Part shown: piece after piece, positions 3,241-55,422 of the stretch | How positions within the stretch are numbered: the stretch's first letter is position 1 | How the letters are laid out: the number at the start of each line of letters is the position of its first letter | Origin: Rhodocyclaceae bacterium | GTDB taxonomy: Bacteria > Pseudomonadota > Gammaproteobacteria > Burkholderiales > Rhodocyclaceae | Reading direction: 5' to 3' | NCBI GenBank assembly: GCA_013791905.1 | Contig: VMSX01000017.1 | Coordinates: 124,001-188,000 of the forward strand | DNA: 64,000 bases | Program-made: the position numbers and the translations under genes | Notes under the pieces: model-generated | Seen by the model: only the letters and a program-made list of their open reading frames with translations | Told to the model about the DNA's origin: nothing | The model's database searches: none

Positions 3241-4052
3241 GGCGCCTGGGTTTCCAGTGCCGCCAGCGTTGCTTCAAGCAGCGCCGGGGCCTCCTCGATT
3301 TCAGTGGTCTGCCAGAAAGTCGGCGCTGGCAGGACGGCGCTGCTGGCGCGATAACCGGCACCCTGCCATTGCTCCAGTCGCTTGAGCGACGCGGGTGCCA
3401 GCGTGGCATCCGCTCGCGTCGAGAGTTCCAGCCAGATCAACTGGCCCGACTGCGGTGGCGGCAGAAGTTCCGCCTCTTCCAGCCCTTGGGCCAACGCGGC
3501 AGACAGCGTGTAGCCGGAGACTTCCACGGTCTGGCCGCTGGCGAGCTGTTGTTTGAGTGCGGCCATCACGCCCTTGCTCTCACCGGTCATCAGTTCGCCC
3601 GCAACTTTGAGGCGCAGGAATTGCTGCAGGAACTGCTTGCCCGAAGCGATCGGTTGCCAGAACAGGAAATTTGCGGGTTCGTTAATTTGTTCTGCAGCCT
3701 GCGTAGCCAGCAGGCAGCCGGTGCGCAGGCCCCACAGCCAGAGCGGCGCCTGACAGCGCTTGCGCAGCCAGGCGTGGGCATCGAGCACATCCTGAATCCA
3801 GCCCTGCCAGGTGGCGTCGCCGAAGTCGCCGGAACTGTCGCCACAACCATGCAGGTCGATTTGCAGAACTGCGTAGCCATGCGCTGCCAGCATTTGCGCC
3901 TGCAAGGCCGCCATGCGGCGGGACTTGTTCATTTCCTCGGCGAATGGATGCAGATAGAGCAATGCAGCTTTGGGCTGCCCGCCTGACGGTGCGTAGTAGA
4001 GGCAGAGGCGCTGGCCGTTGGCGACCGGAAGGAAGAAGACTTCAGGCACCAT
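3237..4052 (-). CDS. Exosortase-A-associated hydrolase 2 (alpha/beta fold, Ser-less)
   Basis: A 271-residue alpha/beta hydrolase-like protein, second of the paired hydrolases typical of exosortase-A clusters. It shows a HPFAEEMNKSRR oxyanion-type segment and QIDLHGCGDSSG, but the expected nucleophile elbow reads GLRTG, so no Ser or Cys is present there; it may be non-catalytic or use another residue. It follows the acyl carrier protein gene and overlaps hydrolase 1 by an ATGA. Near its C-terminus, LPAPTFWQ is encoded by the dispersed repeat sequence found elsewhere in the window. Function is inferred only from context. Confidence 0.8.
   Translation of the reverse strand: MVPEVFFLPVANGQRLCLYYAPSGGQPKAALLYLHPFAEEMNKSRRMAALQAQMLAAHGYAVLQIDLHGCGDSSGDFGDATWQGWIQDVLDAHAWLRKRCQAPLWLWGLRTGCLLATQAAEQINEPANFLFWQPIASGKQFLQQFLRLKVAGELMTGESKGVMAALKQQLASGQTVEVSGYTLSAALAQGLEEAELLPPPQSGQLIWLELSTRADATLAPASLKRLEQWQGAGYRASSAVLPAPTFWQTTEIEEAPALLEATLAALETQAP
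3315..3339 (+). repeat. Dispersed GTCGGCGCTGG element, coding copy in hydrolase 2
   Basis: Shares GAAAGTCGGCGCTGGC and GGACGGC with the other copies; read on the gene strand it encodes the residues LPAPTF. No hairpin extension. Confidence 0.55.
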
Positions 4053-13629: not shown

Positions 13630-13634
13630 GGGTG

Positions 13635-13665
13635 GTTCCTCCGCAGGGCCGCCCCAAGGGGGAAC
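13635..13665 (-). repeat. GC-rich hairpin repeat containing the dsbA ribosome binding site
   Basis: On the minus strand, arms GTTCC and GGAAC enclose CCTTGGGGCGGCCC and TGCGGAGG. The related unit occurs twice upstream of livM (36551-36666), where it likewise supplies GGAGG, and in an inverted form near 42862. Confidence 0.5.
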
Positions 13666-16168: not shown

Positions 16169-16197
16169 GAAAGTCGGCGCTGGTGGGACGGCGTGCC
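16169..16197 (+). repeat. Dispersed GTCGGCGCTGG element, intergenic copy
   Basis: GAAAGTCGGCGCTGGTGGGA then CGGCGTGCC in the 115-bp gap between argS and ahpF. The hairpin second arm is not preserved. Confidence 0.6.
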
Positions 16198-18913: not shown

Positions 18914-20239
18914 TTACGCTGACGCCGGCCCCTGTATCTCCAGCTTGCGCATCTTTTCCCAAAGGTTCTTGCGGCTGATGCCGAGTTCGCCAGCGGTGTC
19001 GGCGATGCGTCCGCCGTGGCGGGCGAGGGCCTGCTGGATGTAGCGCCGCTCGCTGTCGGCGAGATAGCTGCCCAGTGTTGGGGAAATGTCCGGGGTGTCG
19101 GCACCCTCCCCTTCAAATTTTCCGCACAGCATGTCAACGGTGATGACTTCGGCATTGCCCAGGATGCGGGCGCGTTCGAGACAGTGGCCCAGTTCGCGCA
19201 CATTGCCGCGCCAGGGCCGTTCCAGCAAAGCCTGCTCCGCAGCGGGATGGAGGCGGGGCGGCGGTCCGTCGGCAATAAATTTTTCCATCAGGCGGCCAGC
19301 CAGCCAGAGGATGTCTTCCTTGCGCTCGCGCAACGGCGGGATATCGATCTGCACCACGTGAATGCGGTAATAGAGATCCTCGCGAAACTTGTCTTCCTCG
19401 ACCATGGTGCGCAGGTCGCGGTGCGTGGCGCAGATCAGACGGATGTCGATCGGGATGACCCGGTGGCCGCCGACGCGCACGATGACCCGTTCCTGGATGG
19501 CGCGCAGCAGTTTGATCTGCATGCCCAGTGACATGTCGCCGATTTCGTCGAGGAACAGGGTGCCGCCGGCGGCCTGCTCGAAACAGCCCTTGCGCTCCTT
19601 GATGGCGCCGGTGAAGGCGCCTTTTTCGTGGCCGAACAGCGCGTCCTCCATCAGCGACTCGGTGACGGCGCCGCAATTTACCGCAACGAAGGGCTGGCTC
19701 CCCGTGGGGTCGGCATGGCCATGCAGGGCGCGGGCGACGACTTCCTTGCCGACGCCCGATTCGCCGGTGATGAGCACCGAGCGTGCCTGGCCGGCAATGC
19801 GGGGCAGCATGGCCTCGATGCGGCGCATGGCGCTGGAAATGCCCAGCTGCGGCGCGCCGGTCGTCTCGGGTGTGGCGCGCGAGCTCAGCAAGCGCACCTT
19901 GTCGAGCAGCAGCGGCACGTTGAGCGGCTTGGTCAGATAGTCCTCGGCACCCAGCTTGAGCAGGCGCACGGCCTGGTCGATGGCGCCGTGGCCGGTGATG
20001 AAAAGAAAGGGCGGCAGTGTCTGCCCCGACTTCTGCAACTCGGTGAAGAGTTCCTCGCCCGAGATGTCGGGCAGGCGGATGTCGCTGATGACCAGTTGGT
20101 AGCCCTTGTGCAATAGTCCCGCCAAAGCCTCACGGCCGCGCTGAAACCAGTCACAGGCATAACCTTCCATGTCGAGCCGCTCGATCAGCGCCTCGCCCAT
20201 GATGGTGTCGTCTTCGATCAGGCAAACTTTTGGTTTCAC
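18914..20239 (-). CDS. Sigma-54-dependent response regulator of the arsenic locus
   Basis: A 441-residue NtrC-type activator. The receiver domain (about residues 1-120) has the phospho-acceptor Asp53 in ISDIRLPD and Lys in LTKPL. The central AAA+ domain has Walker A GESGVGKE, the sigma-54 contact loop GAFTGA, and Walker B LFLDEIGD. The C-terminus is a Fis-type helix-turn-helix (GRIADTAGELGISRKNLWEKMRK). It overlaps the kinase stop by four bases. Such activators form part of ArrSTR or ArxXSR-type regulatory sets. Its likely target is the sigma-54 promoter at 22776 before the divergent respiratory operon, which is inference. Confidence 0.9.
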   Translation of the reverse strand: MKPKVCLIEDDTIMGEALIERLDMEGYACDWFQRGREALAGLLHKGYQLVISDIRLPDISGEELFTELQKSGQTLPPFLFITGHGAIDQAVRLLKLGAEDYLTKPLNVPLLLDKVRLLSSRATPETTGAPQLGISSAMRRIEAMLPRIAGQARSVLITGESGVGKEVVARALHGHADPTGSQPFVAVNCGAVTESLMEDALFGHEKGAFTGAIKERKGCFEQAAGGTLFLDEIGDMSLGMQIKLLRAIQERVIVRVGGHRVIPIDIRLICATHRDLRTMVEEDKFREDLYYRIHVVQIDIPPLRERKEDILWLAGRLMEKFIADGPPPRLHPAAEQALLERPWRGNVRELGHCLERARILGNAEVITVDMLCGKFEGEGADTPDISPTLGSYLADSERRYIQQALARHGGRIADTAGELGISRKNLWEKMRKLEIQGPASA

Positions 20240-21744
20240 GTCGGTCTTTCCAATGTGGTCGGCGTCCCGCCAGCGCCGACTTTCGCAGACTGTGCGGTTA
20301 CCTCGTAGTGCAGGGGCAAATTGATCAGGAAGCGTACTTCACCCGCGTCACACTCGACGGCGATACGGCCGCCGAGTTGATTGACGGTCTGGTAACTCAC
20401 CCATAGCCCCAGGCCGTGGCCACCATCGCGACCCGACACAAAGGGCTCGAACAAGTGGGCCAGAATTTCTGGCGTTGGTGGTTCGCCCACATTGGCGACG
20501 AGGAGTAGCAGTTGATCACCGTTCGCGTGCGCTTCCACGCGAACCGTATCACCGGGTTGGGTGGCCTCGATCGCGTTGAGCAGCAGATTGATCAGCACCT
20601 GCCGGACGAAACCGGCCGGCAGCGGCAACGACTCCGCGATGTCGATGTCGAAGGCGAGTTGCAGCGATTTCCGGGAGGCCTGCGGTTCGACCAGCGTACG
20701 GATGTCTTCGAAGTCCTGCCGGTTCAGGTCGCGTGACTGGACCCGTGCCTGCACCAGCAAGGCGCCCACGGTTTCGGTGATCTGCTGCAGGCCGCGTTCG
20801 AGCAGTGCGACGGTGCGGGCCGTCGGCGGATCGAGCGGGCCGCGCTGCTTGAGCGTGTCGAGCGCCATCAGCATGCCACCGAGGGGATTGTTGACCTCGT
20901 GGGCAATGCCAGCAGCGAGCCGGCCGACCGCCGCCAGGCGCTCGGATTGCATCACTTCACGCTCAAGCGCGGTCTTCTGGCGGATCTCGGTCGCCGCTTC
21001 GCGATAGGCGGCGAACAGCTGGCCCAGTTCATCGTGAAACGCATACAGATCAGGGCTAAGGTCGGCGGGCGCCCCATGCACGATCTCGCTCATGCCATGC
21101 GCCAGCTGCACCAAGGGTTCGGCCATGCGCCGGCCCCAATACCAGTTCAGCGGCAGCAGGATCGCCAGCACCAGTACACCCATGCCGGCGCCACCGAGGG
21201 CAAAACCATAAAAGCGCGGCAGGAACACGTTCTTGGAATGGGTGATGACCAGTGTGCCAAGGAGCTTACCTTCCTCGGCAACCGGTATCGTCACATACAA
21301 ATAGTCCGAATCAGGGAACTCGAAGACGCCTTTGAAATCCAGATTCGCTCTAGCGAGCGCTTGCGCCAGTTTTGGATAATCGGCACCGAGGCTGGACAAT
21401 TCCGCGAGCAATGGCATGATCCGCGGTGCCGAGGAAACCAGTACTTTGAGGTCGCGGTCGATAACGAAAATTTCCTTGGCCTCCAGCGGTAGATCCGGCC
21501 GGTCCTCATGGAAGGGAGCGCGCACGAGTTCAAAGGCACGCCAGGCGTCGTCATGCAGCAGCACCGGGAAAAGTGTCTTGGCCAGGGTGAAACCGAGGTT
21601 CTCCGAGCTGCTGACCAGGTCCTGCTTCAGGTAATCATAGGCGCGCAACATTGTCGCTGCCGAGACGGCCAGCGCCGTGGCTATGATGAGCGCACTGCCC
21701 CACAAGGGAATCTTGTGGCGGAAGCTCAGATCGAACAGCCGCAT
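20236..21744 (-). CDS. Membrane sensor histidine kinase of the arsenic locus
   Basis: A 502-residue kinase. Two membrane segments (about residues 13-33 and 180-200) enclose a periplasmic sensor domain of about 145 residues, followed by a HAMP-like linker. The phospho-acceptor His282 lies in GIAHEVNNPLGG, the N box is INLLLNAIEA and the G box HGLGLWVS. The neighbouring periplasmic binding protein probably delivers the signal, as suggested for ArrT/ArxX with their kinases. The last residues after the catalytic domain (AKVGAGGTPTT) are encoded by a copy of the dispersed repeat, giving a possibly extraneous tail. Confidence 0.9.
   Translation of the reverse strand: MRLFDLSFRHKIPLWGSALIIATALAVSAATMLRAYDYLKQDLVSSSENLGFTLAKTLFPVLLHDDAWRAFELVRAPFHEDRPDLPLEAKEIFVIDRDLKVLVSSAPRIMPLLAELSSLGADYPKLAQALARANLDFKGVFEFPDSDYLYVTIPVAEEGKLLGTLVITHSKNVFLPRFYGFALGGAGMGVLVLAILLPLNWYWGRRMAEPLVQLAHGMSEIVHGAPADLSPDLYAFHDELGQLFAAYREAATEIRQKTALEREVMQSERLAAVGRLAAGIAHEVNNPLGGMLMALDTLKQRGPLDPPTARTVALLERGLQQITETVGALLVQARVQSRDLNRQDFEDIRTLVEPQASRKSLQLAFDIDIAESLPLPAGFVRQVLINLLLNAIEATQPGDTVRVEAHANGDQLLLLVANVGEPPTPEILAHLFEPFVSGRDGGHGLGLWVSYQTVNQLGGRIAVECDAGEVRFLINLPLHYEVTAQSAKVGAGGTPTTLERPT
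20261..20285 (-). repeat. Dispersed GTCGGCGCTGG element, coding copy at kinase C-terminus
   Basis: Minus-strand GAAAGTCGGCGCTGGCGGGA then CGCCG, in the last codons of the sensor kinase; reading frame gives KVGAGGTP. Confidence 0.6.
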
Positions 21745-25671: not shown

Positions 25672-25759
25672 ACAACTCAGGGCCCGGCTGGGTCACTTTT
25701 TCAAGGATTGACTGATCCAGTATGCTGCGATGCACATGTATTTGGAGAGGAAAACTTCA

Positions 25760-28309
25760 ATGAAACTGACAAGGCGCTCTTTCATTCAAGGGTCTGCCGC
25801 TGCGGCAACCCTTTTTATGGTGGGCGGATTGCATGCCGCTCAACCCAAAACCAGCGCCATCGTGATTCGCGACGGCGAGCCTGCCAGCCCGGCCAAGGGT
25901 GACTGGGTGGCCAGTTGTTGCCAGGGTTGCACGGCCTGGTGCGCAATCGAGATTTTTGTCCAGGACGGTCGTGCCGTCAGGGTGCGCGGCAACCAGCTCA
26001 GTAAAGCAAACGGTGGTTACGTGTGTCCGCGCGGCCATTTGATACCGCAGCAAACCTATGATCCGGATCGCATCAAGGTGCCGATGAAGCGCACCAACCC
26101 GTTGAAGGGGCGCGGTGTCGATCCGAAGTTTGTTCCCATCAGTTGGGACGAAGCGCTCGATATGGTCGCCGACAAGATGATCGAGCTGCGCAACAACAAC
26201 GAGCCACACAAGCTGACCTACATTCGCGGGCGCTATTCCTCGACCGCCACCCAAATTCTTTACGGGGCGCTCCCTGCCGTATTCGGCACCCCCAACTATT
26301 TTTCGCACAGCTCGATCTGCGCCGAAGCCGAAAAAATGGGCCCCGGCCTGACGCAGGGTTTCTTTGGCTACCGCGACTACGACCTGGCTCGCACGCAATG
26401 CCTGGTGATCTGGGGTTGCGATCCGGTTTCGTCGAACCGCATGGTGCCGGCGGCCATCGCCAACCTGAGTGGCATCATCGATCGCGGCACCCTGATTACC
26501 GTCGATCCGCGTCTGTCGACCTCGGCAACCAAGTCGCATGAATGGCTGCCGATCAAAGTCGGTACCGATGGCGCGTTGGCCAGTGCCATCGCCCATGTGC
26601 TGCTCGTTGAAGGACTATGGAACAAGGCTTTTGTCGGCGACTTCAAGGAAGGCAAAAACCTGTTCGTGGCCGGCAAGATGGTCGATGAAGCGGCCTTTGC
26701 GGAAACCGAGACCAACGGCCTCGTCAAGTGGTGGAATCTTGAACTGAAAGACAAGACCCCCGTCTGGGCCGAGAAGGAAACATTGATTCCGGCTGCGCAG
26801 ACGCTTCGCGTTGCGCGCCTGATGGCCAAGTCCGCGCCCCAGACCGCCGTCTGGATGGGACCGGGCGTCGGCATGAACCCGCGCGGTACCTATGCCTCGA
26901 TGGCGGTGCATGCCCTGAACGGCTTGCTCGGCTCGATCGACGTCGAGGGCGGCGTGCTGCAAACCAACAGCGTGCCGCTGGGCGCCTATCCAAAATACGA
27001 CGCCTATCTGGACGAAGTCACCAAGAAATACGGCAAGGGTAAAAAGATCGATGGGCGCGGCGACAAGGACATGCCGGCCATGATGAACGCGCGGCCCGGC
27101 AGTGGCGTGGTCGCCAACAATATCGCCAACACCATGCTGAAGGATCCGGATGCCGTCAAGGTGCTGCTCAGTTCCTGGTCCAATTTCAACTTCTCCTGCA
27201 CCGACCCGGCGCGCTGGGACAAGGCGCTTTCCAAGTTGCCGTTCTTTGCCCATATGGTCACCAATGCCTCGGAAATGACGCAGTTTGCCGACGTGGTGTT
27301 GCCCTCGACCTTCAATGCCACCGAGGGTCTGTCGGTCATTACCAATAACGGCGCGACGCATGGCTTTGCTTCCATCCAGCAGCCGGCGGGCAAGCGTTTG
27401 TGGGATGTGAAGCAGGAAGAGACCGAGGTTTGCTGGCTGCTGGCCGCCAAACTCAAGGCCCGCGGCTTCGCGAATCTCTACGATTACTTCGCCACCGAGT
27501 TCAAGGACCCGGAAACCGGCAAGACGGCGAGCAACGAGATGGAGTTCAGCGAAATCCTGGCCAAGATCTCCAGCGCAACAATGTGGATGCCCAAGGAGCC
27601 GCTCAAAGGCGACAAGCTTTCCGGCTGGGCGGACTTCAAGAAGAAGGGCATTTACAACACGCAGCAGTACACATTCAAGAAGGGCTGGGGCGGCAAGTTC
27701 AACACGGCCACCAAGAAATTCGAGTTTTTCAGCGAAACCATGAAGAAGGGTTTGCTGGAGCACGCGACCAAGCACCAAACCACGGTCGACGACATTCTCA
27801 AGGTTTCCGGGTATCTGGCCCAGGGCGATCTGGCCTTCGTGCCGCACTATGAACCACCGAAGCGCCATGGCAGCCTCAAGGACTATCCCTTCGAGTTTGT
27901 CGATTACAAGTCGCGCCTCAACCGCGAGGGCCGTTCGGCCAACCTGCCCTGGTACCAGGAGTTCAAGAAGCTCGACGACGGCGATGTGTCGTGGGGCGAT
28001 GTGCTCAAGATGAATCCTGTCGATGCCAAGAAGCTGGGTCTGAAGACGGGCGACACGGTCAAGGTTTCCTCCATGGCCGGTGCAATTGTCACCAAGCTCA
28101 AGCTGTGGGAGGGCATCCGTCCGGGAACGATCACCAAGGCCTTCGGCCAGGGGCACTGGGCCTATGGCCGGATTGCAGCAAAGGACTATGCCAAGGCGCA
28201 GCCACTCGGGGGCAACAACAATGAAATCCTTGTTGATGACTACGATCGTCTGAGTGGCTCCACAGCCCGCAATGGCGGATTCACCGGCGTCAAGGTTCAA
28301 AAAGTCTGA
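25760..28309 (+). CDS. arrA: Respiratory arsenate reductase-type molybdoenzyme, large subunit
   Basis: An 849-residue bis-MGD enzyme of the DMSO reductase family, with a Tat signal (TRRSFIQGSAAAATLFMVGG). One [4Fe-4S] site is C54-x2-C57-x3-C61-x27-C89, and the Mo ligand is probably Cys187 in HSSICAEAEK. The region IRGRYSS, HSSICAEAEK, GYRDYD and DPRLSTSATKSHEWLP reads like ArrA. From memory of the Shewanella ANA-3 ArrA structure, R158, H183, C187, K192 and Y204 correspond to arsenate-pocket residues R165, H189, C193, K198 and Y210. RGRY is the ArrA form; ArxA arsenite oxidases are reported to carry GRGWG instead. Start at 25760 has GGAGAGG upstream. A related reductase of another oxyanion or sulfur compound is the main alternative. 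Confidence 0.78.
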   Translation: MKLTRRSFIQGSAAAATLFMVGGLHAAQPKTSAIVIRDGEPASPAKGDWVASCCQGCTAWCAIEIFVQDGRAVRVRGNQLSKANGGYVCPRGHLIPQQTYDPDRIKVPMKRTNPLKGRGVDPKFVPISWDEALDMVADKMIELRNNNEPHKLTYIRGRYSSTATQILYGALPAVFGTPNYFSHSSICAEAEKMGPGLTQGFFGYRDYDLARTQCLVIWGCDPVSSNRMVPAAIANLSGIIDRGTLITVDPRLSTSATKSHEWLPIKVGTDGALASAIAHVLLVEGLWNKAFVGDFKEGKNLFVAGKMVDEAAFAETETNGLVKWWNLELKDKTPVWAEKETLIPAAQTLRVARLMAKSAPQTAVWMGPGVGMNPRGTYASMAVHALNGLLGSIDVEGGVLQTNSVPLGAYPKYDAYLDEVTKKYGKGKKIDGRGDKDMPAMMNARPGSGVVANNIANTMLKDPDAVKVLLSSWSNFNFSCTDPARWDKALSKLPFFAHMVTNASEMTQFADVVLPSTFNATEGLSVITNNGATHGFASIQQPAGKRLWDVKQEETEVCWLLAAKLKARGFANLYDYFATEFKDPETGKTASNEMEFSEILAKISSATMWMPKEPLKGDKLSGWADFKKKGIYNTQQYTFKKGWGGKFNTATKKFEFFSETMKKGLLEHATKHQTTVDDILKVSGYLAQGDLAFVPHYEPPKRHGSLKDYPFEFVDYKSRLNREGRSANLPWYQEFKKLDDGDVSWGDVLKMNPVDAKKLGLKTGDTVKVSSMAGAIVTKLKLWEGIRPGTITKAFGQGHWAYGRIAAKDYAKAQPLGGNNNEILVDDYDRLSGSTARNGGFTGVKVQKV

Positions 28310-28342
28310 TCCCCGCACGCACAAATTCACTAGGAGATAAAT

Positions 28343-29113
28343 ATGCCTAAATTCGGTATGGTCATCGACCTGCAAAAGTGCGTCGGCTGCGGATCTTGCG
28401 CCCTCGCCTGCAAAGCAGAAAACAACACCCGCTCACGCGGTAACGCTCAAAGCTACAACTGGGCCGACTTCATCAGCAAGACCGAGGGGATTTTCCCCAA
28501 CACCAAGCATTTCACGATGCCGGTGTTGTGCAACCACTGCTCGGAACCGGCGTGTATCAAGAGTTGTCCGACCGAACCGACGGCCATCTTCAAGACGCCG
28601 GAAGGTTTTGTGCTGATCAACGAGGAACTCTGTGTCGGCTGCCAGGCCTGCCAGCAATCGTGTCCGTACAGCTCGCCCACGCTGGATGATCGCAGCCTTA
28701 ATGGCGAGACCTACAGCGTGCTCAGCTTCAACCCGAAGCGTCGCCCAACCCAGCCGCAATGGGCGGACAAGGTGGCAATGATTCCGGGTTGCACGGCGTC
28801 CGGGGTGGAAACTGCCGAGAAGTCCGGCGCGGCCGCACCCAACCTGAATCACTACGAATCGGAAAATTCGTATGCGATTCGCAACCAGAATGTGGTGGAA
28901 AAATGCACTTTCTGCCATCATCGCGTCAGTCACGGCCTGCAGCCCGCTTGCGTCGAAGTTTGTCCATCCAAGGCGCGCATTTTTGGTGACCAGCTGGATG
29001 CGGGCTCTGAGATCGCGAAGATCCTGGCGAAAGAGAAAACCTTCCGCCTGCAGGAGGACAAGGGAACAAAGCCGAACGTGTATTACATCAACAAGTACAG
29101 CCCCCGCGCCTGA
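28343..29113 (+). CDS. arrB: Four-cluster ferredoxin subunit of the arsenate reductase-type enzyme
   Basis: A 256-residue iron-sulfur protein of the DmsB/ArrB type. Cysteine groups for four [4Fe-4S] clusters are visible: CVGCGSCALAC, CNHCSEPACIKSC, CVGCQACQQSC and CTFCHHRVSHGLQPACVEVC. No signal peptide, as expected for a subunit exported with the Tat-bearing ArrA. It starts 33 bp after arrA with AGGAGATAA upstream. It would wire the molybdenum site to the heme proteins encoded upstream. A stretch of about 30 residues (NPKRRPTQPQWADKV to ENSYAIRNQN) before the last cluster group is longer than in shorter ArrB proteins I recall. Confidence 0.82.
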   Translation: MPKFGMVIDLQKCVGCGSCALACKAENNTRSRGNAQSYNWADFISKTEGIFPNTKHFTMPVLCNHCSEPACIKSCPTEPTAIFKTPEGFVLINEELCVGCQACQQSCPYSSPTLDDRSLNGETYSVLSFNPKRRPTQPQWADKVAMIPGCTASGVETAEKSGAAAPNLNHYESENSYAIRNQNVVEKCTFCHHRVSHGLQPACVEVCPSKARIFGDQLDAGSEIAKILAKEKTFRLQEDKGTKPNVYYINKYSPRA

Positions 29114-29132
29114 AATTGGCCGGGTTTCAACA

Positions 29133-29163
29133 GGGAGGCAGGGCGCGCCCTGCCTCCCTTTTT
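29133..29163 (+). terminator. Rho-independent terminator/attenuator between arrB and the chaperone gene
   Basis: A perfect 13-bp inverted repeat, arms GGGAGGCAGGGCG and CGCCCTGCCTCCC, is followed by TTTTT. The next gene starts only 14 bp later on the same strand, so it probably limits chaperone expression by partial read-through. Confidence 0.85.
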
Positions 29164-29176
29164 ACTGGGAAACAGA

Positions 29177-29824
29177 ATGTCAGACTCTGAAAATCGGATT
29201 GCCCTGGCGCGCGAAGACCTGTGCCGCTACATTGCCGCGTGCTACTACCAGCCTGAACCCGCTTTCGCCGAAGAGGGCGTTTTCGTCACCCTGCTCGACG
29301 CCGCCAAACTGGTCCACCCCGACCTGGTGCCCCATGCGGAAAAGCTGGGTGCAGAGTTCGCTAGCGCGGCAACGGCAGACCTGCTGCTTGATTACACCCG
29401 CCTGTTCCTCGGCCCTTCACACATCCTGGCCAAGCCCTACGGATCGTTCTGGCTGGAGGGTCAAAAAACGCTGATGGGCGAAAGCACCATGGCGGTCCTC
29501 GATCTCTACCGGGAGGGCGGTTTCGACATGGATGATGAGTTCAAGGAACTCCCCGACCATGTTGCTGCTGAACTTGAGTTCCTCTACCTGCTGATCTTTC
29601 GCCAGAATGAGGCGCGCGCGAATGGCGATCTGGAACGGCTGAACGCGATGACTGCCCTGAAAAATCGTTTTCTCGCCGAGCATCTGGGCCGCTGGATCGG
29701 GCCTTTTACCGATACCGTCAAGGAAGGTGCGGAAAGCGTTTTCTACCGCCAGCTTGCCGAACTCACCGCATTGTTCGTCAGCATGGAAATGCGCGCCGAA
29801 GAGGTTGATTCAGCGCTGCACTAA
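29177..29824 (+). CDS. TorD-family molybdoenzyme chaperone
   Basis: A 215-residue all-helical cytoplasmic protein of the TorD/DmsD/NarJ family, recognisable from CRYIAACYYQPEPAF, DLLLDYTRLFLGPSHILAKPYGSFWLEG and the E-x-PDHVA-ELEFLYLL motif. These proteins bind the Tat signal and guide cofactor insertion, here most likely for the ArrA-type enzyme; arr and arx operons commonly end with such a gene (ArrD/ArxD). It lies just past a strong terminator-like hairpin, with GGGA as a weak ribosome binding site. End of the respiratory operon. Confidence 0.87.
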   Translation: MSDSENRIALAREDLCRYIAACYYQPEPAFAEEGVFVTLLDAAKLVHPDLVPHAEKLGAEFASAATADLLLDYTRLFLGPSHILAKPYGSFWLEGQKTLMGESTMAVLDLYREGGFDMDDEFKELPDHVAAELEFLYLLIFRQNEARANGDLERLNAMTALKNRFLAEHLGRWIGPFTDTVKEGAESVFYRQLAELTALFVSMEMRAEEVDSALH

Positions 29825-29833
29825 GCGATCTTA

Positions 29834-29879
29834 GAAAGTCGGCGCTGGTAGGACGGCGTGCCCCGCATGGGGCACGCCG
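29834..29879 (+). repeat. Dispersed GTCGGCGCTGG element with complete hairpin
   Basis: The best-preserved copy: GAAAGTCGGCGCTGGTAGGA followed by an 11-bp stem (29854-29864 and 29869-29879, arms CGGCGTGCCCC and GGGGCACGCCG) with a GCAT loop. It lies between two convergent operons and could act as a bidirectional terminator. Confidence 0.7.
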
Positions 29880-31748: not shown

Positions 31749-32264
31749 TCAAGCTACCAAGTGAATTCGGCGCGCGGCGAAGCAGGCTTCGTCGGGACTC
31801 ATGCCTTCGAGCGGCAGCGCGAGGAAGGCCTCGATGCGCCGTTTCAATTCCTGATAAGCCTGCTCGAAAGCGGTACGGCGTGCTGCCAGCGGCTCGACGT
31901 GTGCCGGATCGTCGATGCCCCAGTGCGCCGTGACTGGATGACCCGGCCAGACCGGACAGGTTTCCTTTGCCGCATTGCCGCACACCGTAAAAATGTAATT
32001 GAAAGTCGGCGCTGGCGAGATGAAATGCCCCGCATGGGGTACGGTGTTCTGGCCGAATTCATCCCACGACTTGCTGCGCGCCCCCGCGCAAGGAATGCCA
32101 TGCCTTTGCAAGGTCTCGATGGCGACCGGGTTCACCTGCCCCGCCGGTTGGCTGCCGGCCGAATAGGCCTTGACGCGCCCCTTGCCGAGATGATTGAACA
32201 GCATCTCGCCGAGAATCGAACGCGCCGAATTGCCGGTGCACAGCACGAGGATGTTGATCGTCAC
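31749..32264 (-). CDS. arsC: Cytoplasmic arsenate reductase ArsC (LMW phosphatase type)
   Basis: A 171-residue low-molecular-weight tyrosine-phosphatase-fold arsenate reductase. The anion loop is CTGNSARS near the N-terminus; SAGS, ARSKSWDEF, FTVCGNAAKETCPVWPG and TAHWGIDDPA follow as in the ArsC family. GTG start at 32264 overlaps the stop of the thioredoxin-like gene. Between WDEF and FTVC the loop is about 21 residues where I recall about 11, and the extra NTVPHAGHFI is encoded by the hairpin part of a dispersed repeat. The insertion keeps frame and leaves catalytic motifs intact, so the enzyme may still work. Confidence 0.92.
   Translation of the reverse strand: MTINILVLCTGNSARSILGEMLFNHLGKGRVKAYSAGSQPAGQVNPVAIETLQRHGIPCAGARSKSWDEFGQNTVPHAGHFISPAPTFNYIFTVCGNAAKETCPVWPGHPVTAHWGIDDPAHVEPLAARRTAFEQAYQELKRRIEAFLALPLEGMSPDEACFAARRIHLVA
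32001..32045 (+). repeat. Dispersed GTCGGCGCTGG element with hairpin, inside arsC
   Basis: GAAAGTCGGCGCTGGCGAGA then ATGAAATGCCCCGCATGGGG; the second part is shared over about 25 bases with the intergenic copy at 46077. On the gene strand it encodes the loop NTVPHAGHFISPAPTF. Confidence 0.7.
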
Positions 32265-34738: not shown

Positions 34739-35507
34739 CGCCGCCTCCCAGATAAGCCTCGATCACCTTGGGATCCTTTTGCACAACGGCGGGTACATCC
34801 TCAGCAATCTTTTCGCCATAGTCGAGTACGGCAACGCGGTCGCACAGGCCCATCACGAGTTTCACGTCATGCTCGATCAGCAACACCGTCAAGCCGTCGG
34901 CGCGCAGCCCCTCGATCAATTTGCGCAGGGCGGCGGTTTCGGTGGCGTTCATGCCGGCGGCCGGCTCGTCCAGCGCCAGCAGTTGCGGTTCGGTCGCCAG
35001 GGCGCGGGCAATTTCGAGGCGGCGCTGGTCGCCATATGAAAGGTTGCGCGCCAGATCGTTGGCACGGTGGGGAATGCCGACGTAGTGCAGCAGTTCCTCG
35101 GCACGGCGGCGGATTGCTTCTTCTTCCTCACGTTGGGCCGGCGTGCGCAGAATTGCCCCGAAAACACCCACGTGGGTGCGTGAATGGCGGCCGACCATGA
35201 CATTCTCGATCGCCGTCATGTTGCCAAACAGGCGGATGTTCTGGAAGGTACGGGCGATGCCGGCCTGTGCTACGAGGTGCGGACTCTCCAGGTTGAGTGG
35301 TACGCCACCGAATAACACTTCTCCGCCATCGCGTGGGTAGAGGCCCGTCATCACATTGAAAAAGGTGGTCTTGCCGGCGCCGTTGGGTCCGATCAGGCCG
35401 TAAATCTCCTTGGCGCAGATGGTCAAAGAAACATCCTTCAATGCCTGCACACCGCCAAAGCGCTTGCCGATGTTGCGCGCTTCCAGCAATACTTCGCCCG
35501 CGCTCAT
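34731..35507 (-). CDS. livG: Branched-chain amino-acid ABC transporter ATPase LivG
   Basis: A 258-residue ABC ATPase with Walker A GPNGAGKTT, signature LSYGDQRRLEIARAL, Walker B LLALDEPAAGMNATE and IEHDVKLVM, typical of LivG. Overlaps livM upstream and livF downstream by four to eight bases. Pairs with LivF on the cytoplasmic side of the permease. Confidence 0.92.
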   Translation of the reverse strand: MSAGEVLLEARNIGKRFGGVQALKDVSLTICAKEIYGLIGPNGAGKTTFFNVMTGLYPRDGGEVLFGGVPLNLESPHLVAQAGIARTFQNIRLFGNMTAIENVMVGRHSRTHVGVFGAILRTPAQREEEEAIRRRAEELLHYVGIPHRANDLARNLSYGDQRRLEIARALATEPQLLALDEPAAGMNATETAALRKLIEGLRADGLTVLLIEHDVKLVMGLCDRVAVLDYGEKIAEDVPAVVQKDPKVIEAYLGGGGD

Positions 35508-36550
35508 TTCGCTTCATTCATTTCAAGTTTGTGTCGCGACTCAGGCCACAGGCCGGCGGGGCGGAAACGCATTGTCAGCACCAGGGCGCCGCCGAAGATC
35601 AGCATGCGCAGCACCTCGGGATCAATCAGCAACTGGCCAAACAGCATGTGCTGCACCGGTTCGACGGTATAGCGCAGGAACTCCGGCACAAAGGAAAGCA
35701 GCATCGCCCCGGCCAGCACGCCCCAGACATTGCCCATGCCGCCCAGCACCACCATCGACAGGACCAGAATCGACTCGTGCAAAATGAAGCTTTCGGGGCT
35801 GACGAAACCCTGCATGGCGGAGAACATGCCACCGGCAATGCCGCCGAAGGTGGCACCCATGGCAAAGGCCAGCAGTTTCATGTTACGGGTATTGATGCCG
35901 GCCGCCTTGGCGGCGAGCTCATCCTCGCGGATGGCGACCCAGGCCCGGCCGATGCGCGACTTTTGCAGGCGCAGATTGACGACGATGACCAGTAACAACA
36001 GGATCAGCAGCACGTAGTAGTACTTGGCCGGGCCGGTGAATGGGATGCCGAACAGCGTGTGGGTGTTGACAAAATCCATCCCGGCAATATTCAGGCCGTC
36101 GATGCGCGTGATGCCTTTGGGGCCGTTGGTGATATTGAAGGGCTGCGAAAGGTTGTTCAGGAAAATACGCACGATCTCGCCGAAGCCCAGAGTGACAATG
36201 GCGAGATAGTCGCCGCGCAACCTCAAGGTCGGTGCGCCGAGAATGGCGCCCGCCATGCCGGCACACAAGGCGCCGATCGGCAGGATGAGCCAGAACGGCA
36301 GGTGCAGGCCAAAGTGCGGCGAAGAGAGTAGCGCATAGACATAGGCGCCGACAGCAAAAAACGCGATATAGCCCAGATCGAGCAGTCCGGCCATGCCGAC
36401 GACGATGTTCAGCCCCAGCGCGAGAAAGATGAAGAGTATGGCCAGGTTGGTAATGCGCACCCAGGCCGTGCCAACCGTCGTCAACACCAGCGGCAACGCC
36501 AGCAGCGCCAGCGCAACCAGCACGAGACCAATCCATTTTTTGGTACTCAT
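35504..36550 (-). CDS. livM: Branched-chain amino-acid ABC permease LivM
   Basis: A 348-residue permease with about eight to ten membrane segments, and signatures NLAILFIFLALGLNIVVGMAGLLDLGYIAFFAVGAY, GDYLAIVTLGFGEI and GINTRNMKLLAFAMGA. The ATG at 36550 has GGAGGCAGC upstream; the reading frame continues through a repeat to 36658 but that extension is not family-like. Followed by livG with ATGA overlap. Confidence 0.92.
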   Translation of the reverse strand: MSTKKWIGLVLVALALLALPLVLTTVGTAWVRITNLAILFIFLALGLNIVVGMAGLLDLGYIAFFAVGAYVYALLSSPHFGLHLPFWLILPIGALCAGMAGAILGAPTLRLRGDYLAIVTLGFGEIVRIFLNNLSQPFNITNGPKGITRIDGLNIAGMDFVNTHTLFGIPFTGPAKYYYVLLILLLLVIVVNLRLQKSRIGRAWVAIREDELAAKAAGINTRNMKLLAFAMGATFGGIAGGMFSAMQGFVSPESFILHESILVLSMVVLGGMGNVWGVLAGAMLLSFVPEFLRYTVEPVQHMLFGQLLIDPEVLRMLIFGGALVLTMRFRPAGLWPESRHKLEMNEAK

Positions 36551-36666
36551 GCTGCCTCCGCCGGGACGCCCCAAGGAGGCAGACACCCACCCGTGGGGGG
36601 CAGCGAGCCGATTTTGCGAGCGTGGGGGGGCATCGCTGCCTCCGCCGGGCCGCCCCAAGGAGGCAG
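36551..36666. repeat. Two 32-bp hairpin direct repeats upstream of livM
   Basis: Copies at 36551-36582 and 36635-36666 differ at one or two bases; each has arms CTGCCTCC and GGAGGCAG. The proximal copy supplies the livM ribosome binding site. A related unit precedes dsbA. The remaining gap to livH (36667-36752) is a G-run-rich, low-complexity stretch with no gene seen. Confidence 0.65.
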
Positions 36667-39685: not shown

Positions 39686-41698
39686 TTACGCCTTGGCAAG
39701 CGCCGCTGCAAGCTCACTTTGATCAGCCAAAGGCACACTACAACTAACGCCCCGACAGACCCAGGCGTTGACGTGGAGTGTTTCCGGCTTGGCGAGCGCT
39801 GGCGGCAGGCTGGTCAAACCGTTGGGGAGCGCCAGCGTAATCGCTGATTTCCTCTGTGCCAAAGAATGCTGCCATCCCGGCAAGTCTCGGGCCGGGCCAC
39901 GCAGTATCACGATAGTGGGCGGCGTAATGGCTTCTTCGAGGGCCTGCAGTAGGGTCGTACAACCTCCCGCCTGATGTTCGAGTTGCGGCCAGAATGCCTC
40001 GATCGTCCGCCGTGCCGCATCGAGGTAGCGCGTCTCACCAAGCAGATGGCCGAGACGTTGCAAGGCCAGGGCGGCGACGCCGTTGCCTGCCGGCATTGCA
40101 GAATCGTGGCAGCTCTTGGGACGCTGGATCAGGGTTTCGTGATCGTGGGCGGTGAAGAAGAAGCCCCCCGCCTCACGGTCTTCGAAATGTTCAAGCAGGG
40201 TATCGGCAAGCTGGCACGCGAAGTCAAGATCGCCAGCATTGAATTCGGCCTGCAGCAATTCCAGCAAGGCGGCAATCAAGTAAGCGTAGTCGTCAAGATA
40301 GGCGGGCAGATGAGCGCGCCCCTGCCGCGACGCAGCCAGCAAGCGACCATTCTGCCAATGGGTTTTCCGCAGGTACGCAAGTGCGCCTTGTGCCGCTGCC
40401 AGCCAGTCCGGTCGGTCGAGTACGCGTGCCGCGTGCACCAACCCTTTGATCATCAGGGCATTCCAGGAGGTCAGCGTCTTGTCGTCAAGACCGGGGCGGA
40501 TCCGTTTTGCGCGCTCGGCAAAGAGCTTGCGGCGCGCCGATTCGAGCAGGGAGGCGTCTTCCTCCGCCAACGCAGCACTGACCTTCAGGTGCCAGTGTTT
40601 GTTCTCGAAGTTTGGCGGCTCGTCCAATCCCCAGTGCCGTCCCGCCAGCGCCGACTCTTGCGGCGTCAGCAAACGTTCGACTTCGGCGCGATCCCAGACG
40701 TAGAACTTCCCCTCTTCGCCTTCTGAATCGGCGTCGAGGGACGAATAAAACCCCCCGGTCGGCCCGGTCGGCCCGGTCATCTCGCGAATCGTCCAGGCGG
40801 CGGTTTCCTCCGCCACGCGACGAAAATCAGCCAAGCCGTTGATGGCCCAGGCGTCGGCATAGAGCGACAACAGTAGGCCGTTGTCATAGAGCATTTTTTC
40901 GAAATGCGGGATTTCCCAGCGTTCATCGACGCTGTAGCGGGAAAAGCCGCCGCCAAGCTGGTCATAGATGCCGCCTGCCGCCATGCGCTGCAGGGTAAGC
41001 AGTGCGGCCTCGTGTGCCTGTGGGTCATTCGGTCGCTGCAGCAGGAATGCCAGGTCGGTCGGGTGCGGAAACTTCGGTGCACCGCCAAAGCCGCCCCACT
41101 CAGGGTCAAAATTTCCCAGCAACGTGGCGCGCAGCGCATGGATGGGTTTGACGTCAAGCTGCGCTGGGCCGGCGGCCGGTGCGGTGTGTTGCGCAAGGGC
41201 ACGGCGCAACTCACTGTTCTGCGCCTCGACATCCGACCGACGTGTGCGCCAGACCCCGGCGATCTGCCGGCACAGACCGACAAAACCGGGCAGACCGTAA
41301 AGCGCCTCTTTCGGGAAATAGGTGCCACCAAAGAATGGCGTGCCATCGGGGGTGAGGAACATGGTCAGCGGCCAGCCACCGTGGCGGGTGGCCAGCATCT
41401 GGTGTGCGGTCTGATAAATCTGGTCGAGGTCGGGGCGCTCCTCGCGGTCAACCTTGATATTGACGAACAACTCGTTCATCACCGCCGCCACTTCGGCGTC
41501 CTCGAAGGATTCGTGGGCCATGACATGGCACCAGTGGCAGGCCGAGTAGCCGATGGAAAGCAGAATCGGCTTGTCATGGCTGCGAGCCAGAGTAAGCGCT
41601 TCCTCACCCCAAGGCAACCACGCGACGGGGTTGTCGGCGTGTTGCAACAAGTACGGGGAGGTCTCGGCGGCTAACTTGTTCTGCGGTATGGCGCTCAT
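39686..41698 (-). CDS. Thioredoxin-domain protein, YyaL/spermatogenesis-associated-20-like
   Basis: A 670-residue protein with an N-terminal thioredoxin-like DUF255 domain ([20 protein letters not shown]) and a long alpha/alpha-barrel like N-acylglucosamine 2-epimerase. [21 protein letters not shown] and [26 protein letters not shown] are family hallmarks. Molecular function is not established. Its segment ESALAGRH is encoded by DNA matching the dispersed repeat without any indel. Start ATG at 41698. Confidence 0.88.
40634..40659 (-). repeat. Dispersed GTCGGCGCTGG-like sequence in a conserved coding region
   Basis: Minus-strand AGAGTCGGCGCTGGCGGGAC then GGCAC, nearly the full repeat core, encoding ESALAGRH where homologues have a residue-for-residue equivalent. 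Confidence 0.5.
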
Positions 41699-42881: not shown

Positions 42882-44738
42882 TCATCCGAGTTGTGTCACG
42901 TCGCGCACCGCGCCGGTATCCGCGCTGGTGGTCATGGCGGCATAGGCGCGCAGTGCCGCCGACACCTCACGTTGGCGGCTAACCGGTTTCCATGCCCCAT
43001 GTTCGCCCGGACCCTTTGCTTCCATCGCGGCGCGCCGTGCCGCCAGCGCCGACTTTTCCACGGCGAGGTTGATGCTGCGGTTGGGAATATCGATTTCGAT
43101 GATGTCGCCCTCTTCCACCAGCGCGATCTCGCCGCCCATCGCCGCCTCGGGGCTGACATGGCCAATGCTTAATCCCGATGTACCGCCGGAAAAGCGTCCG
43201 TCGGTGAGCAGGGCACAGGCCTTGCCCAGCCCTTTGGTCTTGAGGTACGAGGTCGGGTAGAGCATTTCCTGCATGCCGGGGCCGCCCTTGGGACCTTCGT
43301 AGCGGATCACCACCACGTCGCCCGGCTTGACCTGGTCGGCGAGGATGGCGTTGACGGCGTCTTCCTGGCTCTCGAACACGCGGGCCGGACCGGAAAACTT
43401 GAGGATGCTTTCATCGACGCCCGCGGTCTTGACGATGCAGCCATTGCGCGCGATGTTGCCGCTCAACACTGCGAGGCCGCCGTCCTGCGAGAAGGCGTGC
43501 GCCTTGTCACGGATCACACCGCCCTTGCGGTCGAGGTCGAGCGTCGGGTAGCGGCGCGACTGCGAGAATGCAGTCTGGCTCGGGACGCCGCCGGGCGCCG
43601 CGCGGTAGAAGTCATGCACTTTCTTGTTGCTGCTGCGCATGACGTCGCAGCAGTCGAGCGCCTCGCCCATGGTCGGGTAGAGCACAGTGGGGCATTCGCG
43701 ATTCAGCAGCCCGGCGCGATCCAGCTCGCCGAGGATGGCCATGATGCCGCCGGCGCGATGCACGTCTTCCATATGGACGTCCGACTTGGCCGGCGCCACT
43801 TTCGACAGACAGGGCACGTGGCGCGAAATGCGGTCGATGTCCTTCATGGTGAAATCGACCTGCGCCTCGTGCGCGGCGGCCAGCAGGTGCAATACCGTAT
43901 TGGTCGAGCCGCCCATGGCGACGTCGAGGCACACCGCATTCTCGAAGGCTGCGAAGCTGGCGATGCTGCGCGGCAATATGGTGGTGTCGTCCTTCCCGTA
44001 ATAGCGTTGGCACAATTCGACGATCAGCCGACCGGCCTTGAGGAAAAGCATCTTGCGATCAGCGTGGGTGGCGAGGACCGAGCCGTTGCCGGGCAGCGAC
44101 AGGCCCAGTGCCTCGGTCAGGCAGTTCATCGAATTGGCGGTAAACATGCCGGAGCAGGAACCGCAGGTCGGGCAGGCGGAGCGCTCGTAGGAATCCGATT
44201 CCTTGTCGCTCACCGTGCTGTCGGCGCCCTTGACCATGGCATCGACCAGATCGACGGGGATGATCTTGCCGCCCCATTTCACCTTGCCGGCCTCCATCGG
44301 CCCGCCGGAAACGAACACCGTGGGGATATTTAGACGCAGGCTGGCCATCAGCATGCCCGGGGTGATCTTGTCGCAGTTGGAGATGCACACCATGGCGTCG
44401 GCGCAGTGCGCATTCACCATGTATTCCACCGAGTCGGCAATCAGCTCGCGCGACGGCAGCGAATAGAGCATGCCGCCATGCCCCATGGCGATGCCGTCAT
44501 CGACGGCGATGGTATTGAATTCCTTGGCCACGCCGCCAGCCGCTTCGATCTCGCGCGCCACCAGCTGGCCCATGTCTTTCAGATGCACGTGGCCGGGCAC
44601 GAATTGGGTGAAGGAGTTGACCACGGCGATGATCGGCTTGCCGAAGTCGCCGTCGGTCATGCCGGTGGCGCGCCACAGCGCGCGCGCGCCGGCCATGTTG
44701 CGACCGTGGGTGGAGGTGCGGGAACGGTAAGCAGGCAT
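42882..44738 (-). CDS. ilvD: Dihydroxy-acid dehydratase
   Basis: A 618-residue IlvD/Edd-family enzyme that dehydrates 2,3-dihydroxy-3-methylbutanoate and its isoleucine-pathway analogue in the cytoplasm. Fe-S cluster and active-site motifs: [46 protein letters not shown] and [16 protein letters not shown]. Length and ends are normal. A stretch KSALAARR is encoded by DNA matching the dispersed repeat, without any indel. About 100 bp downstream is an inverted GC-rich unit related to the dsbA/livM repeats. Confidence 0.95.
43031..43058 (-). repeat. Dispersed GTCGGCGCTGG-like sequence within ilvD
   Basis: Minus-strand GAAAAGTCGGCGCTGGCGGC then ACGGCGCG encodes EKSALAARR; closest to the intergenic copy at 55392. 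Confidence 0.5.
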
Positions 44739-45617: not shown

Positions 45618-46078
45618 CAAGACCATTCAAGGTGCTGGGCATCCAGCAGATTGCCATTGGCGGCGCGTCGAAGGAAAAGCTGCGCACCCTGTGGGTCGAC
45701 AAGCTCGGCCTCGCGGTCACCGGCAATTTCGTTTCGGAACGCGAAAACGTTGATGAAGACATCTGTTCGATTGGCAGCGGCCCGTACAAGGTCGAGGTCG
45801 ACCTGATGCAGCCGATCGACCCGGAGAAAAAACCCGCAGTTCATGCCACGCCGCTCAACCACGTCGGCCTGTGGATCGACGACCTGCCCAAGGCGGTCGA
45901 ATGGCTCAGCGCGCAAGGCGTGCGCTTCGCGCCCGGCGGCATCCGCAAGGGCGCGGCCGGTTATGACATATGCTTCCTACACCCCAAGGCAAGCGACGAG
46001 TTCCCCATCGGCGGCGAAGGCGTGCTGATCGAACTGGTGCAGGCGCCCCCGGAAGTCATCGCGGCACTCGGCAAGTAA
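45614..46078 (+). CDS. VOC-family (glyoxalase-like) protein
   Basis: A 154-residue vicinal-oxygen-chelate protein with two beta-alpha-beta-beta-beta modules: [24 protein letters not shown] and [24 protein letters not shown], and a late [10 protein letters not shown]. Resembles methylmalonyl-CoA epimerase and glyoxalase I; candidate metal ligands are Glu and His in LNHVGLW and LIELVQ. Coupled to lgt by a four-base overlap. Substrate unknown. Its stop codon merges into a repeat copy. Confidence 0.82.
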
Positions 46079-46120
46079 AAGTCGGCTCTGGCGGTATGAA
46101 ATGCCCCGCATGGGGTACGG
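46077..46120 (+). repeat. Dispersed GTCGG-headed element with hairpin, intergenic
   Basis: AAAAGTCGGCTCTGGCGGT then ATGAAATGCCCCGCATGGGG; its second half matches the arsC copy (32001) over about 25 bases. Confidence 0.65.
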
Positions 46121-46165
46121 CGGCAGGCGCTCATCGACTGCCGTTGGCCAGCTTTACGCAGCGGG

Positions 46166-47305: not shown

Positions 47306-48505
47306 TCACTCGGCGCGTAGCGCCGCGACCGGATCGAGCCGGGCTGCGCGGCGCGCCGGCAGCACGCCCGCGAGCAGGCCGATGAGGATGGCGACCACCT
47401 CGGCGAGGATGACAAAACTCAGCGGGGTCTGGACCGGCAAGGCCGGCACAAACAGATGCAGCAGTTGCGCGAGGCCGATGCCGAGAATCAGGCCAAACGC
47501 GCCGCCAATGGCCGACAGCGCCACGGCCTCGCCGAGAAAGATGCCGAGGATGGTGCGTTCCTGCGCGCCGAGCGCCTTCAGCAGGCCGATCTCGTTGGTG
47601 CGCTCGGTGACGGCGATGGTCATGATGGTGACGATGCCGACGCCGCCGACCAGCAGCGAAATACCGCCCAGTGCGCCGACCGCCGCCGTCAGCACATTGA
47701 GGATGTTCGACAGGGTGCGCAGCATGTCTTCCTGCGTGGTGAGCGTGAAATCTTCGCGACCGTGCCGTGCGGCCAGCGCCGACTTTATGGACGCTGCCAC
47801 ATCGCTGGACTTGAGCCCTTCGCGATAGGTGAGGTTGATGCGCATCAGGCCTTCGCGGTTGTAAAGCTCCAGGGCGCGGGCCGTCGGGATGAATACCGTG
47901 TCGTCGAGGTCCATGCCGAGAAACTGACCCTTCGGCGCCATCACGCCGACGATGCGAAACTGCATGCCGCCGATGCGCAGACGCTGGCCGAGTGCCGGTT
48001 CGCTGCCGAACAACTCCTGTTTCAGCTTCGGTCCTAGGACGGCCAGCGGGCGCGCATGCTCAAAGGCCTCGTCCGGCAGAAAGTTGCCGCTCAGCACGGT
48101 CATTTTGGTGATCTCGAGCATGGCTGGGCCGGCACCCTGCACGGTGGTACGTCGCAGGCGCCCGTTTGCCGAGACTTCCGAATTACCCCAGACGATCGGC
48201 GTCACGGCGCGTACGCCAGGTACGCGTTCCAGCGCGCGGGCGTCGTCGAGTGTCAGCAGTCGCACGGTGGTATTCAGTCCGCCCGGCCCGCCGCTCGCCT
48301 TGGTTTTGCCGGGCGCGATCTCGATGACGTTGGTACCGAACTGGGTGAATTCCGCCAGCACGAAGCGATGCACGCCCTCGCCGATGCTGGTGAGCAAAAT
48401 CACCGCCGCAATACCGACGGCGATACCCAGCAGGGTCAGAAAACTGCGCAAGCGGTGCGCCGTCAGGGCGCGCAATGACAGGGTAATGAGGTCGCGGGCA
48501 ACCAT
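47306..48505 (-). CDS. MacB-type ABC transporter permease (second copy)
   Basis: A 399-residue membrane protein of the MacB/FtsX permease type: one N-terminal helix (FLTLLGIAVGIAAVILLTSIGEG), a large periplasmic domain (about residues 50-270) and three C-terminal helices (VGALGGISLLVGGVGIVTIM onward). It has no ATPase of its own; the sole LolD-like ATPase nearby is at 51768, so the two permeases may form a heterodimer. Start at 48505 (MVARDLITLSL) preferred over 48538. KSALAARHG in the periplasmic domain is encoded by a repeat-like sequence. Confidence 0.85.
   Translation of the reverse strand: MVARDLITLSLRALTAHRLRSFLTLLGIAVGIAAVILLTSIGEGVHRFVLAEFTQFGTNVIEIAPGKTKASGGPGGLNTTVRLLTLDDARALERVPGVRAVTPIVWGNSEVSANGRLRRTTVQGAGPAMLEITKMTVLSGNFLPDEAFEHARPLAVLGPKLKQELFGSEPALGQRLRIGGMQFRIVGVMAPKGQFLGMDLDDTVFIPTARALELYNREGLMRINLTYREGLKSSDVAASIKSALAARHGREDFTLTTQEDMLRTLSNILNVLTAAVGALGGISLLVGGVGIVTIMTIAVTERTNEIGLLKALGAQERTILGIFLGEAVALSAIGGAFGLILGIGLAQLLHLFVPALPVQTPLSFVILAEVVAILIGLLAGVLPARRAARLDPVAALRAE
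47761..47786 (-). repeat. Dispersed GTCGGCGCTGG-like sequence within permease gene
   Basis: Minus-strand TAAAGTCGGCGCTGGCCGCA then CGGCAC encodes IKSALAARH at a position that appears conserved in the family. Confidence 0.45.
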
Positions 48506-55391: not shown

Positions 55392-55422
55392 GAAAAGTCG
55401 GCGCTGGCGAGACGGCGTGCGG
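55392..55422 (+). repeat. Dispersed GTCGGCGCTGG element, intergenic copy
   Basis: GAAAAGTCGGCGCTGGCGAG then ACGGCGTGCGG in the 80-bp gap between hemL and thiE. No complete hairpin second arm. Confidence 0.6.

Follow-up and report, generated by a model that had tools for sequence, protein, structure and literature searches.

Why would an arsenate reductase contain, within its reading frame, a piece of DNA that also lies between genes? The question arises from the arsC gene of the window, by which we mean the whole 64,000-nt stretch of Rhodocyclaceae DNA that was analysed. The first-pass annotation had noted a loop of about 21 residues between the WDEF and FTVC motifs of ArsC, had attributed about ten of them to a hairpin found again between genes, and had likened this to the palindromic elements of Rickettsia. 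The 21-residue loop and the in-frame translation of a dispersed hairpin repeat are both borne out. So is the intergenic recurrence, whereas the repeat had been drawn too short: it spans 44 nt and encodes SPAPTF as well (Table 1).

Table 1. The arsC gene and the copies of the repeat in the window (window positions).
Feature	Position	Strand	Remarks
arsC, thioredoxin-type arsenate reductase	31749..32264	-	LMWPc fold, 171 aa; PF01451, E=3.1e-16
Long copy in arsC, 44 nt	32002..32045	-	in frame; encodes TVPHAGHFISPAPTF in the ArsC loop
Hairpin module, 21 nt	32020..32040	-	ACCCCATGCGGGGCATTTCAT; exactly 7 codons; missing from the G009 orthologue
3' block of motif	32002..32019	-	CTCGCCAGCGCCGACTTT; in frame also in 9/10 14-residue ArsC loops
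5' block of motif	32041..32045	-	GCCGT (ACCGT at the ArsC site)
Long copy, intergenic	46078..46121	-	matches the ArsC copy at 90% identity (48 nt)
Long copy, intergenic	29835..29878	-	near-perfect hairpin; adjoins a nitrate-reductase-delta (chaperone) family gene
Short copy	3316..3338	-	in exosortase-associated hydrolase 2 gene (3237-4052, -); sense frame 0
Short copy, intergenic	16170..16192	-	
Short copy	20261..20283	+	3' end of histidine kinase gene (20236-21744, -); reads KVGAGGTP
Short copy	40636..40658	+	in DUF255/thioredoxin-like gene (39686-41698, -)
Short copy	43034..43056	+	in ilvD, dihydroxy-acid dehydratase (42882-44696, -)
Short copy	47764..47786	+	in MacB/FtsX-type permease gene (47306-48505, -)
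Short copy, intergenic	55394..55416	-	

The window ArsC scores below the NCBIfam ArsC cut-offs and has the P-loop CX5R and the two later cysteines, with C9, R15, and C103 invariant and C95 nearly invariant among 35 sequences. We compared the loop in 37 genes, comprising 35 of 44 ArsC loci (nine distant ones were dropped), the window gene, and the genome's own paralogue. Its length is 11 residues in 22 genes, 14 in ten, and more in five (20, 21, 23, 24, and 25). With at most three mismatches, the short form of the repeat already lies in frame in nine of the ten loops of 14 residues, including that of the paralogue, and also in three of the 22 11-residue loops. The closest relative, ArsC of genome G009, has a 14-residue loop, and over it the hairpin adds seven residues rather than ten; the other three come with the older short motif. 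The expectation that relatives free of the repeat family would not share the loop agrees with G006, which has no copies and an 11-residue loop without the repeat in an ArsC of just 57% identity. In two further ArsC genes, L077 and L089 from two other lineages, the motif is broken by different in-frame inserts of 27 nt. On the ArsC tree, alleles with and without the motif (scored by a 14-nt core at no more than two mismatches, L077 and L089 counting as bearers) alternate among relatives, with a minimum of 12 state changes, which is an indication only because the tree is weak, with 21 of 40 inner branches open. A motif-like stretch at the 3' end of arsC in L076, L080, L091, and L093 represents a second motif site within the gene.

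In the AlphaFold model of the window ArsC (mean pLDDT 81.7), residues 72–83 fall below 50 and are followed by a strand, residues 90–95, which ends at C95. The predicted disorder fits a tolerated surface loop, the placement for which modelling had been proposed, and the enzyme most likely works, with the insert as a flexible loop. The adjacent genes at 25730-29824 had been described as a respiratory arsenate locus. This is likely but not certain because both components score below the NCBIfam cut-offs: the best profile for the reductase is ArrA (1024 bits against 1600), and the partner reaches 230.7 against 450 for ArrB.

In its short form, the repeat is a bipartite motif of 25 nt with sharp boundaries, C-GCCGT-(CCC)-GCCAGCGCCGACTTT-T. 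Judged from 68 short copies, conservation covers positions -1 to +23, drops sharply at both ends, and is lower in the centre (CCC at 5-7). Its 23-nt core, GCCGTCCCGCCAGCGCCGACTTT, occurs 527 times in the 3.64-Mb genome at three mismatches or fewer, 261 times forward and 266 times in reverse, compared with 0 and 0 for the reversed control, which excludes a chance origin. The core contains no stop codon in any of the six frames. As RNA it folds weakly (-2.6 and -5.1 kcal/mol) and forms no stable hairpin, so that a palindromic nature of the short core was ruled out. We searched 61 genomes for the core and found 311–728 copies in 18 of 19 genomes of the genus, G006 having none, and 528 and 751 copies in G019 and G026 from two other genera; the other 40 have 0–5, and the controls give 0–1 per genome. 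The named relatives include Rhodocyclaceae of the Sulfuritalea/Sulfurisoma group, among others. In G017, the strands are balanced as well (229/229; exact copies 37/26), and exact copies are spread along the whole chromosome; one sampled stretch, C4, has a local strand skew of 22 to 9. The spacing of copies is more even than random, significantly so in G017 (p=0.001), with p values of 0.08–0.11 in three other samples. An Rfam scan of the 64-kb window returned a single match, a tRNA. The window also contains a separate 32-nt repeat, GCTGCCTCCGCCGGGACGCCCCAAGGAGGCAG, at 13634-13665, 36551-36582, and 36635-36666, the last two lying 84 nt from each other, close to the start of the gene at 35504-36658.

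The hairpin forms a separate, smaller layer: a 21-nt module that, in this lineage, occupies the variable centre in a minority of motif copies, nine of 77 in the first sample. The long form (module plus core, at most three mismatches) occurs 27 times in this genome, 29 times in G008, one to seven times in seven more genomes, and in none of the other 52 of the 61. By open frame and codon score, 12 of the 27 were judged genic and 15 not. The genic long copies read VPxAGHFIxPAPTx or KVGxGGMKCPxxGTA. Since 21 nt make seven codons, the host proteins stay in frame. We refer below to genes that we take, from their conserved motifs, to be IspE, GlnRS, Lnt, RibD, MltA, DsbD, a P-type ATPase, and a methyltransferase. 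Four genes, namely ArsC, IspE, and two others, hold the short motif in G009 and are longer by exactly seven residues at that site in this genome. Among the eight long-copy genes searched besides ArsC, three display this clean seven-residue step against G009; in L235, the gap is of six residues and the motif cannot be recognised in G009, the whole GlnRS insert is missing there, and L229, L230, and L239 gave no G009 comparison. With the 21 nt removed on paper, the ArsC copy shows a single difference from the G009 motif, and the rarer T of CTCGCC is common to the two. Insertion of the module into pre-existing motifs is the simplest explanation, with loss in G009 possible for single genes. The seven residues gained by ArsC lie in a flexible loop that directly precedes the strand leading to its second cysteine. 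In the IspE-like gene L223 (G000:C25:29430-30670) and in L236, a further module of ~33 nt lies upstream of the motif and ends in GCCGT, which suggests that the GCCGT edge is where modules are added.

What, then, keeps the motif itself? Gene positions were predicted with a codon-usage gene caller. By these predictions, a 464-kb sample of this genome holds 74 copies, 49 of them genic; the corresponding counts are 45 of 75 in G017 and 34 of 53 in G002 (400 kb each). The genic copies are not placed at random with respect to the frame: their phases 0/1/2 are 13/7/0 in sense and 17/1/11 in antisense orientation (p=3.6e-5), so that 48 of 49 fall in four of the six frames. Over the three genomes, the sums are 34/15/1 and 53/5/20, which are non-independent because G017 and G002 have many sites in common; the two rare readings are arginine-rich. 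Intergenic copies are enriched between convergent genes (8/25 in this genome, 7/30 in G017, and 7/19 in G002); such regions make up 17%, 8%, and 8% of the intergenic bases, respectively.

The stretches sampled from G017 and G002 contain 282 reciprocal-best gene pairs, with a median identity of 90%. Where the gene that holds a copy has an orthologue, the two genomes carry the copy at the same site in 32 of 41 cases seen from G017 and in 26 of 30 seen from G002, 58 of 71 together. Four-fold sites inside the motif differ at 15/167 and 9/139 positions (9.0% and 6.5%), compared with 274/1045 and 212/812 (26%) in the flanks, whereas amino-acid differences are no lower inside the motif (46/258 vs 270/2020, and 33/203 vs 236/1615). 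Choosing low-mismatch copies biases the divergence inside the motif downwards. A simple simulation of this sampling bias under neutrality, made with rounded site numbers and rates for this one genome pair, expects a four-fold divergence of 0.19–0.25 where 0.090 and 0.065 are observed (p<=3.1e-4). Because four-fold divergence is low inside the motif, amino-acid divergence is not, and the effect exceeds the simulated bias, the motif is maintained for its DNA sequence and not for the protein sequence. Genes lacking an orthologue in the other of these two genomes hold fewer copies per kb, 4 in 74 kb vs 41 in 279 kb for G017 and 4 in 73 kb vs 30 in 281 kb for G002. Such depletion is a trait of the DUS and USS signals of DNA uptake.

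Lineages also carry different consensus versions of the motif, or dialects. At position -1, 59 of 72 copies here have C, whereas T prevails in G017 (66 of 72) and G002 (49 of 53). G028 has a version CGCCGT-N8-GACTGACTTT: a degenerate pattern finds 240 copies against one for the control, and in 140 kb, all 18 occurrences of GACTGACTTT have a GCCGT-like block 13 nt upstream. Further versions are present in G026 and G086 among the matches listed. The generic pattern CGCCGT-N12-GACTTT has at least 20 copies in 24 of 199 family genomes, which belong to ten of 68 genera, and at most nine in all others; controls give 0–4 in the 24 genomes and up to seven elsewhere. G002, G004, and G017 score low with this pattern. 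G016, unlike other members of the genus, has 313 core copies (at most three mismatches) and only 69 by the degenerate pattern, possibly another dialect. Counts of k-mers in 20–100 kb of G006, G023, G025, and G036 brought up no prominent further dialect; the approach is insensitive because the known G028 dialect did not surface either.

Copies arise by more than one route. Thirteen genic copies are missing from the orthologue in the comparison of G017 and G002: five, ArsC among them (DEFAVPSAPTFDFI vs DEFAAPDAPQIDFI), by substitution without a unit-length gap, three rows in two genes by tandem gain, and five uninformative because of gene ends, gene calls, or doubtful orthology. G017 has in-frame tandem gains of ~54–57 nt with an extra copy in a RibD-like gene (L152) and an MltA-like gene (L144), at ~394000 and 228000 of G017:C1, and their module differs from that of the window. 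Against homologues in family genomes with 0–5 core copies, 12 of 33 comparisons have no gap in the motif region, including eight of nine for an Lnt-like gene; most of the others differ by 1–4 residues, one by seven, and none by a clean eight. This set covers seven of ten fragments, three having no spanning match, and includes four comparisons with the dialect-bearing G028. The methyltransferase and DsbD copies differ slightly in length from their homologues. A GlnRS-like gene (L240, G000:C27:48963-50201) has a 32-residue in-frame stretch with a long copy that is missing in all seven relatives compared. The GlnRS gain and those in G017 imply that some copies arrive by insertion. Both routes exist, and whole-unit insertion is the rarer in the comparisons made. 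The only Y1/RAYT-like transposase gene found in the genome, L068 (G000:C25), was considered as a mobiliser and rejected: the repeat on either side of it, at ~1127-1150 and 1903-1930, is not the motif but a separate inverted repeat of its own, ggggtcagaccacggttttc. No matching RAYT gene flanked by the motif was found in this genome.

We favour an uptake-like signal because the abundance on both strands, the frame bias in genes, the conservation as DNA, the dialects, and the depletion in genes without orthologues all resemble DUS and USS. In the account that we put forward, a signal resembling a DNA-uptake sequence is kept in Rhodocyclaceae and has been colonised by a frame-keeping hairpin module; we regard this two-layer account as close to an even call. 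For the motif alone, a role in uptake, argued by analogy, is nearly as probable. Cells would preferentially take up DNA that bears the motif; transformation would then favour motif-bearing alleles, producing new copies and retaining old ones at any site where the protein tolerates the encoded peptide. The module might spread by conversion between motif copies or by some motif-targeting activity, and ArsC would be a bystander. More doubtful, yet a serious possibility, is the wider proposal that Rhodocyclaceae possess a third family of DNA-uptake signals, hitherto undescribed and with dialects of its own; its copies would serve as landing sites for small hairpin modules, and the in-frame peptides in ArsC, IspE, and GlnRS would be by-products. 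ComEC is present in seven of seven genomes searched and does not discriminate, since the motif-less G006 has it too. Counted against the two-layer account are the length of the motif (23–25 nt, longer than uptake cores of 9–12 nt), the even spacing that is significant only in G017, the strand skew in C4, the gains by insertion in GlnRS and G017, and the module pattern, which is not universal. Our literature search, thin on subscription journals, found no paper joining "uptake sequence" with Rhodocyclaceae or containing the motif strings.

The DUS of Neisseriaceae, another betaproteobacterial family, likewise occur in many copies and in both orientations, many of them genic with a bias in orientation or frame, and in versions that follow lineages (PMC3630211, PMC2346458). 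DUS are 10–12 nt long with thousands of copies, whereas the Rhodocyclaceae motif is 23–25 nt long, consists of two blocks, and has hundreds. All DUS dialects but one are reported to contain a stop codon (PMC3630211), unlike the stop-free core described here, which is a putative uptake signal and belongs to a motif that in addition hosts hairpin modules. The USS of Pasteurellaceae similarly include genic and intergenic copies and are biased in orientation and position within genes (PMC2346458). They differ in being unrelated in sequence and length and in belonging to a different bacterial class, the present motif being a candidate signal.

The alternative that survives best, although we consider it unlikely, is a mobile palindromic selfish element, of the REP/MITE kind or like the Rickettsia palindromes, able to insert both within and between genes, with one such insertion in ArsC. 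The hundreds of copies, the hairpin modules, the GlnRS and G017 gains, the enrichment between convergent genes, and the small length differences at the methyltransferase and DsbD copies would suit such an element. The weak folding of the short core would not, nor would the conserved synonymous sites; of the 13 orthologue-missing copies, five show substitution and no unit-length gap, three rows are tandem gains, and five are uninformative, the low-copy genomes offered gapless comparisons and never a clean eight-residue gap, and the only Y1 transposase found in the genome goes with another repeat. REP/BIME sequences are extragenic palindromes associated with RAYT transposases. They too are short, number in the hundreds, sometimes form hairpins, and are enriched between convergent genes, whereas here about two thirds of the sampled copies are genic (25 of 74 being intergenic), the core is not a palindrome, and a search of the same genome found no matching RAYT. 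Rickettsia palindromic elements, described in the review PMC10969869 as ~150 bp long and integrated into genes, are similar in that a repeat is read in frame inside unrelated genes. Compared with that account, the present repeat is a 25-nt non-palindrome (44 nt in the long form), mostly common to the two species compared, rarely inserted as a unit, and conserved as DNA. The comparison made in the first-pass annotation is thus useful as an analogy only; it is the 21-nt hairpin alone that resembles a small insertion element in its behaviour, nearer to the Rickettsia elements but confined to one specific place in the motif.

Somewhat less probable still is a binding site for a protein that organises, segregates, or repairs the chromosome, kept genome-wide for that purpose. 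Conservation as DNA within genes and the exact copies along the whole G017 chromosome are compatible with such a site. Signals of the Chi and KOPS type are strand-unbalanced, unlike the motif, whose copies are balanced genome-wide both here and in G017, and the dialects and the depletion in orthologue-less genes fit uptake at least as well. Finally, an ordinary lineage-specific ArsC insertion retained for altered function, with an incidental resemblance to the repeat, could appeal to the proximity of the loop to the redox cysteine C95 that follows it, but it is very improbable, being already contradicted by the genome-wide repeat family, which places the same DNA in intergenic regions, in unrelated proteins, and in different frames, and agreeing poorly with the predicted disorder of the loop and with the alternation of alleles on the weak ArsC tree.

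A DNA-level signal with several hundred copies, mostly in genes, would mean that parts of many proteins of these environmental bacteria are dictated by a reader of DNA and not by protein function. The hairpin module offers a natural series of precise seven-codon insertions, present and absent in matched orthologues. If the uptake signal is real, DUS-like specificity would be extended to another betaproteobacterial family, with dialects that can be put to the test.
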